Assembly: GCA_905182095.1 (NCBI GenBank)
Contig: CAJJAQ010000009.1
Span: 1 to 54,399 of the forward strand
Source of the DNA: an uncultured Pseudomonadales bacterium
GTDB lineage: Bacteria; Pseudomonadota; Gammaproteobacteria; Pseudomonadales; Azotimanducaceae
Direction of reading: 5' to 3'
Length of the DNA stretch: 54,399 bases
Shown here: positions 21,918 to 33,245 of the stretch, piece after piece
Numbering within the stretch: the first letter of the stretch is position 1
Layout: each line of letters starts with the position of its first letter
The notes under the pieces: generated by a model
Databases searched by the model: none
What the model was told of the DNA's origin: nothing
The model's input: only the letters and a program-made list of their open reading frames with translations
Position numbers and translations under genes: made by a program

Positions 21918-23033
21918 ATGACAAATGTACTTGAAATAATTCCGCAAAATCTGCAAGCCGAAGTGGATAGCGCTTTGGCTTGGTTTAACTCACATGAACA
22001 CGCGTCCTATGAAGTGACGGGTATTGTTGATCCGCCAGTTGCATCAGGTAGTGGTGAGGATTTGCGTTTGGTGCTCTGTGGTGAGGGTGTGTGTCGTCAA
22101 GAAACTTTTAAAGTTGCCGGTTCTGCTGGTGTACCTACGGTTGCGTGGTTGGGCTTAGATCACGCGCGTGACCGCCTTGGCGTTGCTGAACTTGATCCAC
22201 CTCCTGGGGCAAGAAAAGCATGGCTAGCTGATGTGGCCGATAAGCATTCTTTTGCTGTGTTGTTATTTTATCGCGGCTTTTGGTGACCTCCCTGCCGCCT
22301 CGAGTTACGAGGCTACGTTTTTAGTGGCGTGATTGATGCCATTCGAGCTGCGGGTGGCGAAGTTTATGCCGTGACGAGTGAACCCCAGGCGCTGGCTTCG
22401 CGCGCCCAAGAAGATTGGCAACTCTCTTTCGACTGTGTGGGTGACCCTCATCAAGAGATTGCTGATGCTGCGCGCCAGCAAGGTATGCTAGATCTGCGTA
22501 CAAGCGAAGTGGGTGAGTTTATAACGCGGGATACGCCTTGGGGTGCTACCCATCCTAAGGGCTTTTATCAGCCCGGTGTGCTCGCACTGAATTCTGACCG
22601 TCTGCTTTATCGTTGGCAGTCTATTCCCAATCGGGAAAATATGGGTGGTGCTGGAGGCAGGCCTACGGAAGACTATGTTTGGCAACAGATTCAGGCAGCT
22701 CTGGCCGATACTTCAACCGCTGACGCTTTGTTAGATGAAACGCCTGTTACAGGGGGTAAGGCACCGCCTTTTTTTGTATTCTCCTTGATGTTGATGGCTC
22801 ACGGTTGGTTTCTGCGGCCTAAAGCGTTTACCTATCAAGGCGACGGGGTGAATCCAATGCAACGTTTCCCGTTAGTGCTTATGCGTATTGTTGGATTTAT
22901 TGGGTGCTGGATTGCAGCATTTGCGCTGCTGCCGCCAATTTGGGTGGGTGTTGCGTTGGCCTTGTATGCGCCACTGGCTATCCGAGGCATTCGCAAGGTT
23001 TACGCTACTTTTGCCGTAGAGGCCGCAGAATAA
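21918..23033 (+). CDS. Probable selenoprotein: peroxiredoxin-like (AhpC/TSA) protein with UxxC and C-terminal membrane anchor
   Basis: A 371-residue product if the in-frame TGA at 22284-22286 is read as selenocysteine (Sec123). Before the TGA are ~122 residues ending AVLLFYRGFW; after it PPCRLELRGYVFSGVIDA continues the same frame to a stop at 23033. In thioredoxin-fold AhpC/TSA proteins, FYRG-x-W-C-P-x-C is the redox centre, so the TGA replaces the first Cys and Cys126 would be its UxxC partner. Later parts (KGFYQPGVLALNSD) fit peroxiredoxin-like proteins, and residues ~285-365 form membrane helices. A SECIS-like hairpin follows. SelL-type aquatic selenoproteins are the closest concept. The alternative is a nonsense pseudogene; no sel genes are visible in this window. 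Confidence 0.72.
22287..22313 (+). promoter_or_regulatory. Candidate bacterial SECIS element
   Basis: A perfect 6-bp stem GCCTCG (22297-22302) / CGAGGC (22308-22313) with loop AGTTA starts just inside the coding sequence after the TGA. The loop begins 16 bases after the TGA and has G followed by U in its first positions, both features required by known bacterial SECIS hairpins. It lacks an obvious bulged U in the stem. It is the strongest hairpin near the TGA. Confidence 0.65.
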
Positions 23034-25775: not shown

Positions 25776-26253
25776 TGTTATTTCCTATGTGTGTAATTCC
25801 GAAGTGGTTCGGTAGATTAATACGTTGGCCATCATTCATAAACTTATTGCTCAGCTTATTTTCGTTCTTCTCCACGTTTAAGGTTTCGTGCTGACCAGTG
25901 GAAGAGCTGGTGGGGGTTTTCTAAAGCGCCCGGCTATTTACCAAGCGACGAGGTTTGGCGGTTACATTAGCAGCCATAAAAGCTATTTCGAGGGCTTTCA
26001 ACAACCGTCGAATCCATCAGGGCTTGCCTCGTGTCCCGCCGTTGTAACTTTCTTTTGTCGTGAACGGGTCCTTCGGGTGTCAAAATTTCGACGCATAAAG
26101 CCAGCGGTTGATTGGCGCTCAAGTTTTGCGATTACATGAAAAAACCAAATAAAAACCATGTAAATCAATTACTTAAATGAAATTTTTCTATCGGTTTTGT
26201 TGGTACGAAATTTGTATGTCTATAGTGTTCAAACAACTTTCGGGCGCCCAATT
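25776..26253. other. 478-base gap before the giant flagellin gene
   Basis: Both strands lack a convincing gene: the plus-strand frame 25888-26139 has no family resemblance. The right part, from ~26120, is AT-rich as in a promoter region. I looked for sigma-28 and sigma-54 promoters ahead of the flagellin and found no match with correct spacing. The start region has no clear Shine-Dalgarno sequence. Confidence 0.5.
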
Positions 26254-29200
26254 GTGGCTTCAATATCCTCTCTCAACAGTTCGACACTGGTCGCTCGGTC
26301 CAATATGGACAAGAGTTCTCAGCGTTTGGAGCGTGCTATGGAAAGCCTTAGCACTGGGCTTAAGCCAAACCTCAGTAGGCAAGACCCCGCTGGGTTTGTG
26401 CGCGGAAGTCAGATGGCCGCCCATGTCCGGTGGCAGACGGAGGCGGTCCAAAACATTTCTAACGCCGGTGCAATGGCCGGCGTTGCCGATACCGGAATTG
26501 AACGAATTAGTGATGCCTTACTGCGTATTCGCGAGCTCGCTATTCAGGCGACAAACGCAACAACGGATAAAGACCGTTCTTCTTTGCAGCTTGAAGTGGC
26601 CCAGTTGGTGGACTCCATAAGTAGTCTGTCTTCGGATACAAAATACAATGGCATTGCTGTGTTAGGCGAATACAAGGATCCCTTCAAATTTCATACTGGC
26701 GCCAGCGCAACCGACTTTCGCACACATAGTATTGATAGCTTTCGTCCTCAAGATATTGGCGCACATTCTTATACAAGTGAGGGTGATGGTGCCCTGACCG
26801 CAGCAGCTAGCCCGAGTGAAGTTGTTCGTGCCGACAATCCGAGCACCATGACGGTACTTAACGAGAAAGGACAGCCTACGGACATTAACTGGCGCACGAA
26901 CCAGCCAGCGGATGAAATAGCTGAACTAATCAACTCGGAAAGTAACATTACCGGCGTCAAGGCTAACGCCGTAACAAGAGCTTCACTCACCTCCATCAGT
27001 AGCCAGGCGGATACCTATAGCCTAAAAATAAACGGCTATAGTACAGGCAACTTTTCTATACGCGCTGGTGAAGGAATTGCTGCCGCGGCTGCAATTAATC
27101 GCATTTCTGGGCAAACCGGTGTGCAGGCAAAATTTTTCGATGGGGCAGTACTCCTAGAGGACAGAAGCGGTAAAGATATAAGTATTGAAAATGCCCGGGT
27201 TGGTGCGACTTTCAATTCCCTTCAGGTGCAAAAAATTGGTTGGGCCGGCAGCGCAAACGATTTGGTTGGCACAGCGGTTAGTTTAGATGGCTCTGGCGCC
27301 AACGACAGTACTGTTGTGTCTGGTAGCATCAAGCTCTCTTCAAACAATGTTTTCTCCATTCATAACACCGCAGCGGTGGGTCATTTCGATGACGACCAAA
27401 CGCAAAAGATCACCCAAGATGACACCGCCTCAATTACCAAGGATGAGCTTTCGCTGGTTGGCGGTAAGCTGTTTCGAGGCAATGGTAAAAGCGCCGATCT
27501 TGTCGGCCTGTTGGATACAGCTGCCTCAGATTTAGCCAATGGGGTTGCGCGATTCAATTTTGCCTATGGTCTTTCTGAGGCGGGCTTTGACGATGAAGCT
27601 GCCGGCTCAGCTAGTTTTGTCAAATGGGACAGTCATAACCAACGGGTCAATCTTGACGGTCAAACGCGTATTAGCAATCACAATTTACCAGTCGATAGCT
27701 TGTTACCTTCCTTTACGAACGGCCTGCTAGATGCAGCCGGGGATGCAACGGCGCCTTATGAAGAGGCGACATTCAGTATTCAGCGGGTTACCGATACTTC
27801 TTCTGCCAGCGGCTTTTCGGTCGAACTACAAAGTGGCCCAATCAAGGTCCCCAGCGTGGGCATTGTGCATGGACCGGTTTTTGAGAGTTCAGAAACCTAT
27901 GCCCTTGAAGCAGGGGATAAACTTTCGTTCGACTGGCGTGGTATTGCTGGAACCGCAGACTATGACGTATATGCCTACGCAATTGACGAAGAAACAGGGG
28001 TCACTCAAGAGCTTTTGAATGCAACCGGTAGTGGCGGTGCATCAAGTAGTTGGGCTGTGGTTAATCAAAGCATCGAAACCGCTGGTAACTACAAAGTGGT
28101 ATTTGTCGGTGGTGTGCGCAGTGACGAAGCAGTTACGTTTACCAATGGCGACTTTGAAGATGGTAGCGCTGGCGATACAGTCATTCCTGGCTGGTCCACC
28201 TTTACCAGTCAAGTTCGTCTCAATGGCATAGATACAATTGCCGGCCAACCCAGCGCCACTGATACAATTTTTCCAGATAACGTTGTTGGGGCTGCGCCCC
28301 ACGATTCCGCATCCCCTAATTCTGCAACCTACACAGCAAATTTGTCTACAGAAACCTCCACCGGTAGCGGGCTTTCTACCCAGTTAAAGTCAAGTGGCGT
28401 GAGCCTGCCTGGATTTGGCATTCTGCATGGCCCCTACCTAGTCAGTAATGACTCGGTAAAGTTACAGCCGGGAGATTCGGTAGGCTTTGATTGGCGAGCT
28501 ACTGGCGGTGCCGACGCTTACGATGTGGTTGGCTATTTGGTTAATGAAAACACCGGCCATGTTGAGCAGTTGTTAAACGAAACTGGTGAAACGGCAAGTG
28601 CAAATACGCCATGGGCCACAGTTAGCAAAAACATTGAAGTTGGCGGAGACTACCGTTTTGTATTTGTCGCGGGTACCTGGGATGCTACGGGTGGTACCGC
28701 TGCGGGTGCTAATCTTTATGTCGACAATATCACCGTACAAGCCGCCGCTTATCCGCTGGTATCGCGAGATGCAAGTCTGCGCATCGACAATATTGCTGTG
28801 GAGAAAAAATCCGGCAACTTAGACCGAGCTGAGTTTAAAGACATGGCAGATCGTTTATATGGTTTGGGTGGCGACGATGGCAGTTCTTACTCAACGGTGT
28901 TCGCTGCAAATTATGTTGAAATCACATCAAATGCAATTGTCTCGGACATGGCGACAGTGTCCACAATTGATATATCGACTTCGGCTGGCGCGAATGCTGC
29001 TTTGTCTGTAATTGATGGCGCGCTAGCGCATTCTGCGAATAATCAGGCCCAGTTGGGCGCATTACAAAGCTCAATAGATTTTGGGATGGAGCGCTTACTG
29101 CAAACGTCGATACAATTCGAATCGTCTAAATCGCGCATGATGGATGCGGACTTTGCGCTGCAGAGTGCCCGCCTAGCGCGAGAGCAAATGCTGCAACAAA

Positions 29201-29265
29201 TGGGCAGTTTTGTGCTTTCCAATACTCAAGAAATTCTCAGAATGTCATTGTCTTTGTTGAGATAG
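26254..29265 (+). CDS. fliC: Giant flagellin with duplicated adhesin-like insert domains
   Basis: A 1003-residue flagellin, about twice the usual length. The conserved N-terminal D0/D1 begins SISSLNSSTLVARSNMDKSS and includes VADTGIERISDALLRIRELA; the C-terminal D1/D0 has RMMDADFALQSARLAREQM and ends LSLLR. A flagellin-IN motif lies at ~252-315. Residues ~505-630 and ~692-830 are two copies of one domain (GIVHGPVFESSE / GILHGPYLVSND, then FDWRGIAGT / FDWRATGGA), resembling repeats of large marine adhesins. I chose the GTG at 26254 because it puts the conserved N-terminus at residue 2; no Shine-Dalgarno is evident. It exports through the flagellar type III system and polymerises on the filament. 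No other flagellar gene lies in the window. Confidence 0.9.
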   Translation: MASISSLNSSTLVARSNMDKSSQRLERAMESLSTGLKPNLSRQDPAGFVRGSQMAAHVRWQTEAVQNISNAGAMAGVADTGIERISDALLRIRELAIQATNATTDKDRSSLQLEVAQLVDSISSLSSDTKYNGIAVLGEYKDPFKFHTGASATDFRTHSIDSFRPQDIGAHSYTSEGDGALTAAASPSEVVRADNPSTMTVLNEKGQPTDINWRTNQPADEIAELINSESNITGVKANAVTRASLTSISSQADTYSLKINGYSTGNFSIRAGEGIAAAAAINRISGQTGVQAKFFDGAVLLEDRSGKDISIENARVGATFNSLQVQKIGWAGSANDLVGTAVSLDGSGANDSTVVSGSIKLSSNNVFSIHNTAAVGHFDDDQTQKITQDDTASITKDELSLVGGKLFRGNGKSADLVGLLDTAASDLANGVARFNFAYGLSEAGFDDEAAGSASFVKWDSHNQRVNLDGQTRISNHNLPVDSLLPSFTNGLLDAAGDATAPYEEATFSIQRVTDTSSASGFSVELQSGPIKVPSVGIVHGPVFESSETYALEAGDKLSFDWRGIAGTADYDVYAYAIDEETGVTQELLNATGSGGASSSWAVVNQSIETAGNYKVVFVGGVRSDEAVTFTNGDFEDGSAGDTVIPGWSTFTSQVRLNGIDTIAGQPSATDTIFPDNVVGAAPHDSASPNSATYTANLSTETSTGSGLSTQLKSSGVSLPGFGILHGPYLVSNDSVKLQPGDSVGFDWRATGGADAYDVVGYLVNENTGHVEQLLNETGETASANTPWATVSKNIEVGGDYRFVFVAGTWDATGGTAAGANLYVDNITVQAAAYPLVSRDASLRIDNIAVEKKSGNLDRAEFKDMADRLYGLGGDDGSSYSTVFAANYVEITSNAIVSDMATVSTIDISTSAGANAALSVIDGALAHSANNQAQLGALQSSIDFGMERLLQTSIQFESSKSRMMDADFALQSARLAREQMLQQMGSFVLSNTQEILRMSLSLLR

Positions 29266-32889: not shown

Positions 32890-33245
32890 TGGTGGAGGCG
32901 GCGGGAGTTGAACCCGCGTCCGCTGGCTCGCCATTATTGGCTCTACATGCTTAGGGTCCGTCTATTAATTTAGCGTCCAGTGACCCGACGGTCAGGGTAC
33001 TTTCTGCGATCCCGATTGGTTTTAACGGTTCAACCCCGGGCGAGGTATCCGCGCGATCTTGCTGTTTTGCCGTCCATTTCTCCTAGCAAGAAACGAATCA
33101 TGGACGTAAGCGGGTTTTTTAGGCCGCTAGTGCGTAGTTTTCGTCGTTGGCAACTATAAAGTTACAGCGATTGTTTTACGAGAGTCACTACCCTCTCGGC
33201 ATGCACCTCAAATTTTGATACCCGCGTCGAAACCATGTCGCCCCC
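32890..33245 (-). ncRNA. ssrA: tmRNA (transfer-messenger RNA)
   Basis: The 3' end reads, on the minus strand, GCGGGTTCAACTCCCGCCGC and then CTCCACCA; the 5' end is GGGGGCGACATGGTTTCGAC. The first seven bases pair with the seven before ACCA, with one G-U, giving the tRNA-like acceptor stem. The tag frame (33119-33151) encodes ANDENYALAA followed by TAA. With SmpB and alanyl-tRNA synthetase it rescues stalled ribosomes and tags nascent proteins for proteolysis. smpB lies 2.6 kb away. Length (356 nt) is normal. Confidence 0.97.

Follow-up and report, generated by a model that had tools for sequence, protein, structure and literature searches.

The gene at positions 21918–23033 (plus strand) of the window, the 54,399-nucleotide stretch of DNA that was analysed, almost certainly encodes a true selenoprotein of 371 amino acids with selenocysteine (Sec) at codon 123, as judged from the frame, the single TGA of its relatives and the protein alignment. 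The best overall explanation of the data, which we regard as highly probable, is a hairpin that would be recognised by SelB, Sec insertion at the TGA, and a membrane-held redox enzyme with a Sec123/Cys126 centre. The family seems to be a sparsely explored branch of an established type of enzyme, the marine peroxiredoxin (Prx)-like UxxC selenoproteins.

The gene and its in-frame TGA

The frame begins with the ATG at 21918 and its stop codon ends at 23033. The lone in-frame stop within it is the TGA at 22284–22286 (plus strand; codon 123), which lies in the translated context FYRGFW-U-PPCRLELRGY and is read as the U of W-U-P-P-C on the basis of the frame, its conservation and the SECIS comparison. 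A sequence-only reading made earlier had joined two same-frame ORFs across this single TGA and counted zero further in-frame stops over 371 codons. The frame bears out both statements, and a second stop, as a disabling lesion that would speak against a functional gene, was not found. The ORF list made under the standard code splits the gene into two ORFs, an example of how easily UGA selenoprotein genes are listed as two broken ORFs.

Conservation of the selenocysteine position

A search of 200 genomes of the GTDB family returned matches at E <= 0.001 in 80 genomes. The strong matches (E <= 1e-25) number 58 in 49 of the 200 genomes, some of them cut by contig ends; one TGA is present in all 57 that span residue 123, the 58th being a fragment that begins after the site. 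One strong match (G196:C233) holds two TAG codons besides the TGA. Most of the weaker family matches are confined to a portion of the Prx domain, the exceptions being a match to positions 322–365 in G092 and one to positions 4–68 in G164:C40, the latter with TAG and TAA. The search of the order (390 genomes, partly the same) gave one TGA in 9 of 9 strong matches from families f1, f40, f44 and f47, four of these nine having already been counted in the family search.

An alignment of 31 distinct proteins puts the TGA of every one in a single column. In a search with a motif that allows either U or C, 61 of 62 fetched family loci (8 of them repeats) had U; the 62nd, L050, was missed by that search and reads USPC. 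The final protein alignment comprises 54 distinct proteins, L050 not among them. A chance origin of the lone TGA is excluded, because relatives down to about 40% identity carry a single TGA. The named near relatives are metagenome-assembled genomes (MAGs) labelled K189A clade, HTCC2089, Pseudomonadales or Gammaproteobacteria, plus one labelled Myxococcales (L045).

Genomes of the class (369) and phylum (398) were searched with a 17-sequence profile, the best four or five candidates per genome being scored. The window gene aside, one match exceeded 50 bits (G630, 100 bits, positions 94–263, no stop) and the others reached at most 47 bits. This match corresponds to L089 1354–1995 (minus strand), a 213-residue PF00578 protein with the motif FFRGEWCPWC and Cys in the Sec column; it is 32% identical to the window protein over 164 residues, and the similarity reaches past the core (QPGV...N.GGA..RP). 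The Prx-like proteins of L072 and L073 likewise have Cys in the TGA column. The earlier placement of the TGA at the first Cys of a CxxC centre agrees with these three distant relatives, which counters the objection of a non-Cys residue at this column.

No full-length Cys form was found among the family, order, class and phylum genomes sampled, an absence in samples rather than proof, and outside the order L045 was the one full-length family form encountered. Searches of PLSDB plasmids and IMG/VR contigs gave no relative of the gene. With Sec the only form observed here, the family lends itself to studying what selenium can do and sulfur cannot.

Two further features of the relatives were noted. 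L026 carries a further in-frame TGA at alignment column 95, within the linker that precedes the core domain; its near twin L027 has glycine at that place. Strong matches occur on two contigs of one genome in G052, G169, G181, G182, G184, G192, G196, G197 and G445; some are fragments, and the pattern suggests paralogues.

A probable SECIS hairpin within the coding sequence

Downstream of the TGA, positions 22297–22313 (plus strand) form the putative SECIS hairpin GCCTCG-AGTTA-CGAGGC, with a 6 bp stem, a 5 nt loop and G at loop position 2. The perfect stem with its AGTTA loop had been noticed in the sequence-only reading; the distance of 16 bases after the TGA given there fits the loop and not the stem, which starts 10 nt after the TGA. 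Published constraints for bacterial SECIS elements are a loop of 3–9 nt, a stem of 4–16 bp, G in the first two loop positions, a UGA-to-loop distance of 16–37 nt and an energy of <= -7.5 kcal/mol (PMC13188914). The window hairpin, at -10.4 kcal/mol, falls within all of these as they are given in that review; the A...A ends of its loop are without the usual closing pair of the published pattern. Folded alone, the hairpin has a z score of -1.68, and a fold no less stable is obtained for 11 of 200 shuffles. On a single sequence the hairpin is not exceptional, and the weight lies in the comparison of relatives.

The comparison set consists of 51 distinct 42-nt stretches, L050 being left out. All six pairs are kept in 46 of the 51, three of these via one G-U pair, and the remaining five have one stem mismatch, in every case with Ala at residue 128. 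Both sides have changed at two of the six pairs, namely pair 3 (UA in 32, CG in 14, mismatch in 5) and pair 4 (UA in 28, CG in 20, UG in 2, GU in 1). Paired cells amount to 98.4% against 91.1% in shuffles, and stem covariation to 0.289 against 0.143, with 0 of 500 shuffles reaching the observed value in either case, both counts being inflated by relatedness among the sequences. Counts of pairs and of pair types were not above shuffles of the 51 stretches, and slid versions of the hairpin are no more than 50% paired. In a quick tree that excluded the stem columns, at least 11 changes of stem type occurred. A phylogeny-aware pair test never pointed in the opposite direction, but involves only four pairs (median p 0.125) and two pairs (p 0.5).

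The clearest single sign of the predicted SECIS element is the freezing of codons beneath it. Arg127 is CGC and Glu129 is GAG in 54 of 54 proteins, giving a codon entropy of 0 at both positions against >= 0.87 bits at the other degenerate conserved positions listed; Leu130 is encoded only by TTA or TTG, and the codons of Pro124, Pro125 and Cys126 just upstream vary. Over codons 124–133, dS is low in most comparisons, not in all (1.34 for L016). Residues 128 and 132 go in pairs because the stem requires it (among the 54 proteins, Leu-Gly in 14, Ser-Ser in 17, Phe-Ser in 17 and Arg-Gly in 1), the Ala cases (Ala-Gly in 4, Ala-Ser in 1) excepted. A hairpin located within conserved codons of a catalytic domain provides a natural case of RNA structure constraining protein sequence.

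Two other loci carry hairpins of their own. The family hairpin is not kept in L050 (minus strand), the relative with USPC, where the Glu129 codon is GAA; the hairpin there, GCCGCG-AAGAATTA-CGCGGC, has 6 bp and an 8 nt loop, which begins 13 nt after the TGA and has its first G at position 3, outside the published constraints. The second Prx-like gene of the window genome, L077, has GCCGAC-TGTTA-GTCGGC with the same geometry and place after its TGA.

Domain architecture

The protein has three parts. The N-terminal domain (residues about 1–88; 21918–22181, plus strand), delineated by the alignment and a model, comprises a helix and four strands and holds Cys54 and Cys59. These two residues, like Sec123 and Cys126, show no variation among the 54 distinct proteins aligned. 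The domain and its Cys pair do not figure in the sequence-only reading. Structure models were built from 8 sequences, and the whole-protein mean pLDDT is 47.4, poor except for residues 1–80. In the model of these residues (block pLDDT 66–88) Cys54 and Cys59 are located on neighbouring strands. A Foldseek search with this domain returned cystatin/monellin-like matches at best, none at E <= 0.001.

The central part is an AhpC-TSA (Prx/thioredoxin-like) core encompassing residues 103–184 (22224–22469, plus strand), with a PF00578 score of 38.4 bits against a gathering cut-off of 26; it is the sole Pfam match over its cut-off. Foldseek matches of the core model (mean pLDDT 60.9) start at E 0.0026 and include ResA (ranked first), the peroxiredoxin Bcp1 (second), thioredoxins and a tryparedoxin (24th); no match was at E <= 0.001. 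By sequence, no solved structure was matched at E below 0.1, ResA standing at a non-significant 0.12–0.13. Placing Cys54 and Cys59 against Sec123 from the models was rejected, as the models are too weak for this purpose.

The C-terminal hydrophobic stretch (residues 314–359, of which about 317–358 correspond to 22866–22991, plus strand) is read as a two-helix membrane hairpin from hydropathy and a low-pLDDT model. Kyte-Doolittle means over 19 residues rise to 2.24 in this stretch and stay at or below 1.11 for windows within residues 1–280. The stretch is long enough for two helices and is broken at Pro339-Pro340, and the low-confidence model puts helices at 313–336 and 340–369. It contains no conserved Cys in the 54-protein alignment. 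These observations support the C-terminal membrane anchor proposed from the sequence earlier, and the hairpin very likely holds the protein in the membrane. The globular part would face the cytoplasm, because positive residues flank both hydrophobic ends (positive-inside rule).

Relation to known selenoproteins and predicted function

The Sargasso and GOS surveys described Prx-like UxxC selenoproteins of marine bacteria (PMC1088965, PMC2398784). The text of the GOS survey names Prx-like 1 (pfam00578, UxxC), Prx-like 2 and 3, and fusions of the latter two to unknown domains with conserved Cys (PMC2398784). There is an appreciable chance, if a minority one, that the window protein belongs to one of these Prx-like groups or fusions of 2008 and is already in print under a general name. 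It shares the AhpC-TSA core, UxxC and a marine bacterial origin with the Prx-like 1 and PF00578 UxxC/UxxU selenoproteins; beyond what the survey text gives for Prx-like 1, it has the N-terminal domain with an invariant Cys pair, the C-terminal hydrophobic hairpin and WUPPC, and in the genomes sampled its family differs from the class as described there in having no full-length Cys form. None of the four NCBIfam models matched reaches its cut-off, and Table 1 of a 2026 review names only the broad PF00578 UxxC/UxxU class and its neighbours (PMC13188914), the groups being compared here by their text descriptions. Titles and the starts of abstracts yielded none describing the three-part architecture, which may be in print in the figures and supplements of the GOS survey.

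Filing the protein under SelL was rejected. The sequence-only reading had called it SelL-like, which holds loosely for a Prx-like UxxC protein and fails on the score: against the SelL-related model NF040769 (SelL_rel_redox) the match is weak, covers residues 110–181 and reaches 16 bits, with a cut-off of 120 that nothing scanned passed. SelL has UxxU or UxxC, and we know of no SelL with an N-terminal domain of the window type or a membrane hairpin; the three-part architecture distinguishes the window protein from SelL-related proteins. With oxidoreductases of the ResA/tryparedoxin type it shares thioredoxin-like fold matches and W-C-x-x-C geometry, WCPPC being the tryparedoxin motif; it differs in having Sec for the first Cys, a Prx-family core and a C-terminal anchor, the anchor of ResA being N-terminal. 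The soluble Cys relative in L089 resembles it in PF00578 and the stretch past the Prx core, but is shorter, has CPWC, and matches neither the N-terminal domain nor the hydrophobic hairpin.

The window protein is most likely a membrane-bound thiol-disulfide oxidoreductase or peroxidase, as far as the sequence allows such an assignment. A peroxiredoxin proper at the membrane, reducing lipid or hydrogen peroxide directly via Sec, has a fair share of points in its favour and is still the lesser prospect: AhpC-TSA as the only Pfam family recognised, the hydrophobic hairpin and the high rank of Bcp1 are in line with it, but ResA and thioredoxins rank alongside Bcp1, and UxxC is thioredoxin-like rather than the TxxU described for Sec peroxiredoxins (PMC2398784, PMC1088965). 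The window protein, with W-U-P-P-C, does not have Sec at the TxxU position. We lean towards a thiol-disulfide oxidoreductase rather than a strict peroxidase.

The mechanism favoured here for this redox enzyme is as follows. SelB would recognise the hairpin starting 10 nt after UGA-123, and Sec would be inserted there. The two C-terminal helices would hold the enzyme to the inner membrane, near membrane substrates, with the globular part in the cytoplasm. Because UxxC stands at the thioredoxin position, the WUPPC motif suggests that Sec123 is the attacking nucleophile and Cys126 the resolving residue; the resulting selenenyl-sulfide would then be reduced. The likeliest internal partner for reducing this Se-S bond would be the Cys54/Cys59 pair, and such a relay is conceivable though somewhat doubtful. 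Comparison of the sequences supports the predicted Sec insertion, SECIS element, domain homology, conserved Cys pair and hydrophobic hairpin; the topology, which residue attacks first, the relay and the kind of substrate (thiol-disulfide or hydroperoxide) are what we infer. A bolder version, which we consider rather unlikely, would be a Sec-obligate three-part membrane redox enzyme in which the Prx-like UPPC centre is recharged, at the surface of the membrane, by a cross-hairpin dithiol (Cys54/Cys59) in the N-terminal domain of the same polypeptide, selenium matters so much that a full-length Cys form is not tolerated, and the SECIS element dictates the 128/132 pairs (Leu-Gly, Ser-Ser, Phe-Ser).

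Selenocysteine machinery and other readings of the TGA

The window genome (G000; 2.57 Mb, 216 contigs, 97.75% complete) contains the genes for Sec insertion, in agreement with what had been proposed for checking: tRNA-Sec (71.4 bits, TCA anticodon), selA (526.6 bits), SelB (609 aa, 404.3 bits, cut-off 242.25) and a SelD domain (TIGR00476, 255.5 bits, cut-off 125) all score over their cut-offs. The selB gene lies directly after selA and upstream of tRNA-Sec, all on one contig. These genes, the PF00578 match and the hydrophobic C-terminal stretch lend support to the earlier view of a Sec-dependent, membrane-tethered protein of AhpC/TSA type with UxxC.

The SelD domain forms part of a 761-residue ORF (L008 217–2502; G000:C36), in which its fusion partner is a pyridine-nucleotide-disulfide oxidoreductase domain (TIGR03169, above its cut-off at 393.2 bits). 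This ORF scores 459.9 against TIGR04369, a model of fusions that are not SelD, below the cut-off of 700, and is comparable to the Ndh-SelD fusions reported in the GOS survey text (PMC2398784). Between selB and tRNA-Sec lies a gene of the dienelactone hydrolase family (L006 3226–4113; PF01738, 77.3 bits).

Co-occurrence with tRNA-Sec proved uninformative as a test, since 145 of the 200 family genomes have a tRNA-Sec over cut-off. Carriers of the gene were taken as the 48 of these 200 genomes with a match at E <= 1e-50, fragments included. By best E-value a tRNA-Sec over cut-off is missing in 17 of the 48, and a repeat scan of these gave one in 0 of the 17. Among them, selB over cut-off is present in 11 and an ARAGORN tRNA-Sec in 5, together 13; the positive controls of the selB search, G050 and G162, both passed. 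The other ten fetched loci gave no further tRNA-Sec by ARAGORN. Neither selB over cut-off nor an ARAGORN tRNA-Sec was found in four draft carriers (G187, G194, G018 and G127; estimated completeness 73–96%), where gaps are the likely, not proven, explanation. The genome of L045, the MAG labelled Myxococcales, has a tRNA-Sec of 66.5 bits, also detected by ARAGORN.

Genetic codes with a reassigned UGA exist elsewhere, and the codon might likewise have a new meaning here, or be decoded as Trp or Cys with no selenium involved. This has very little chance of being correct: TGA ends 3 of 30 hand-picked long ORFs of the window, each gene of the family has one TGA at one redox-active column, the full sel set and a SECIS-type hairpin are present, and distant relatives have Cys, not Trp, at the site.

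Values of dN/dS after the TGA are 0.05–0.12 in 9 of 11 comparisons with a defined value, and those before it 0.08–0.28 in 8 of 11, several dS values in the 11 comparisons being near saturation; the low values after the TGA indicate that the downstream segment is constrained as protein, as far as sequence comparison can tell. A pseudogene or sequencing error, in which the TGA arose by mutation of an ancestral Cys codon or the two ORFs are proteins in their own right, would fit a codon one base from TGC and TGT and the two ORFs of the plain list, but is very unlikely, its chance being negligible given the occurrence of the same TGA in relatives as distant as about 40% identity, across four families of the order and in L045, the low dN/dS after it and SECIS pairing above shuffles. 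On conservation, selection and the SECIS data, pseudogene, sequencing error and codon reassignment were all rejected.

Neighbourhood and other genes

The selenoprotein gene looks monocistronic. It is flanked in the window by genes for a PF00144 protein, an alpha/beta hydrolase and others. Across 18 loci compared, with no more than 5 kb of flank each, these neighbouring genes recur at >70% identity only in L011, L012, L021, L040, L041 and L044, six loci that represent three distinct gene copies, and assigning a function from neighbours was rejected.

The window genome encodes further candidate Sec-type proteins. A second Sec-type Prx-like protein of 160 residues with FYRGHWUPYC (L077 1483–1965; G000:C34) reaches 25 bits with the SelL-related model. 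A third AhpC/TSA gene interrupted by TGA, with DWUPFC, is located at L075 1414–2049 (minus strand; G000:C139), and its N-terminus resembles a signal peptide by eye. Elsewhere in the window, positions 26197–29265 hold a very large flagellin-like ORF of 1022 residues with flagellin N and C domains, and positions 32890–33245 (minus strand) a tmRNA with the tag ANDENYALAA.
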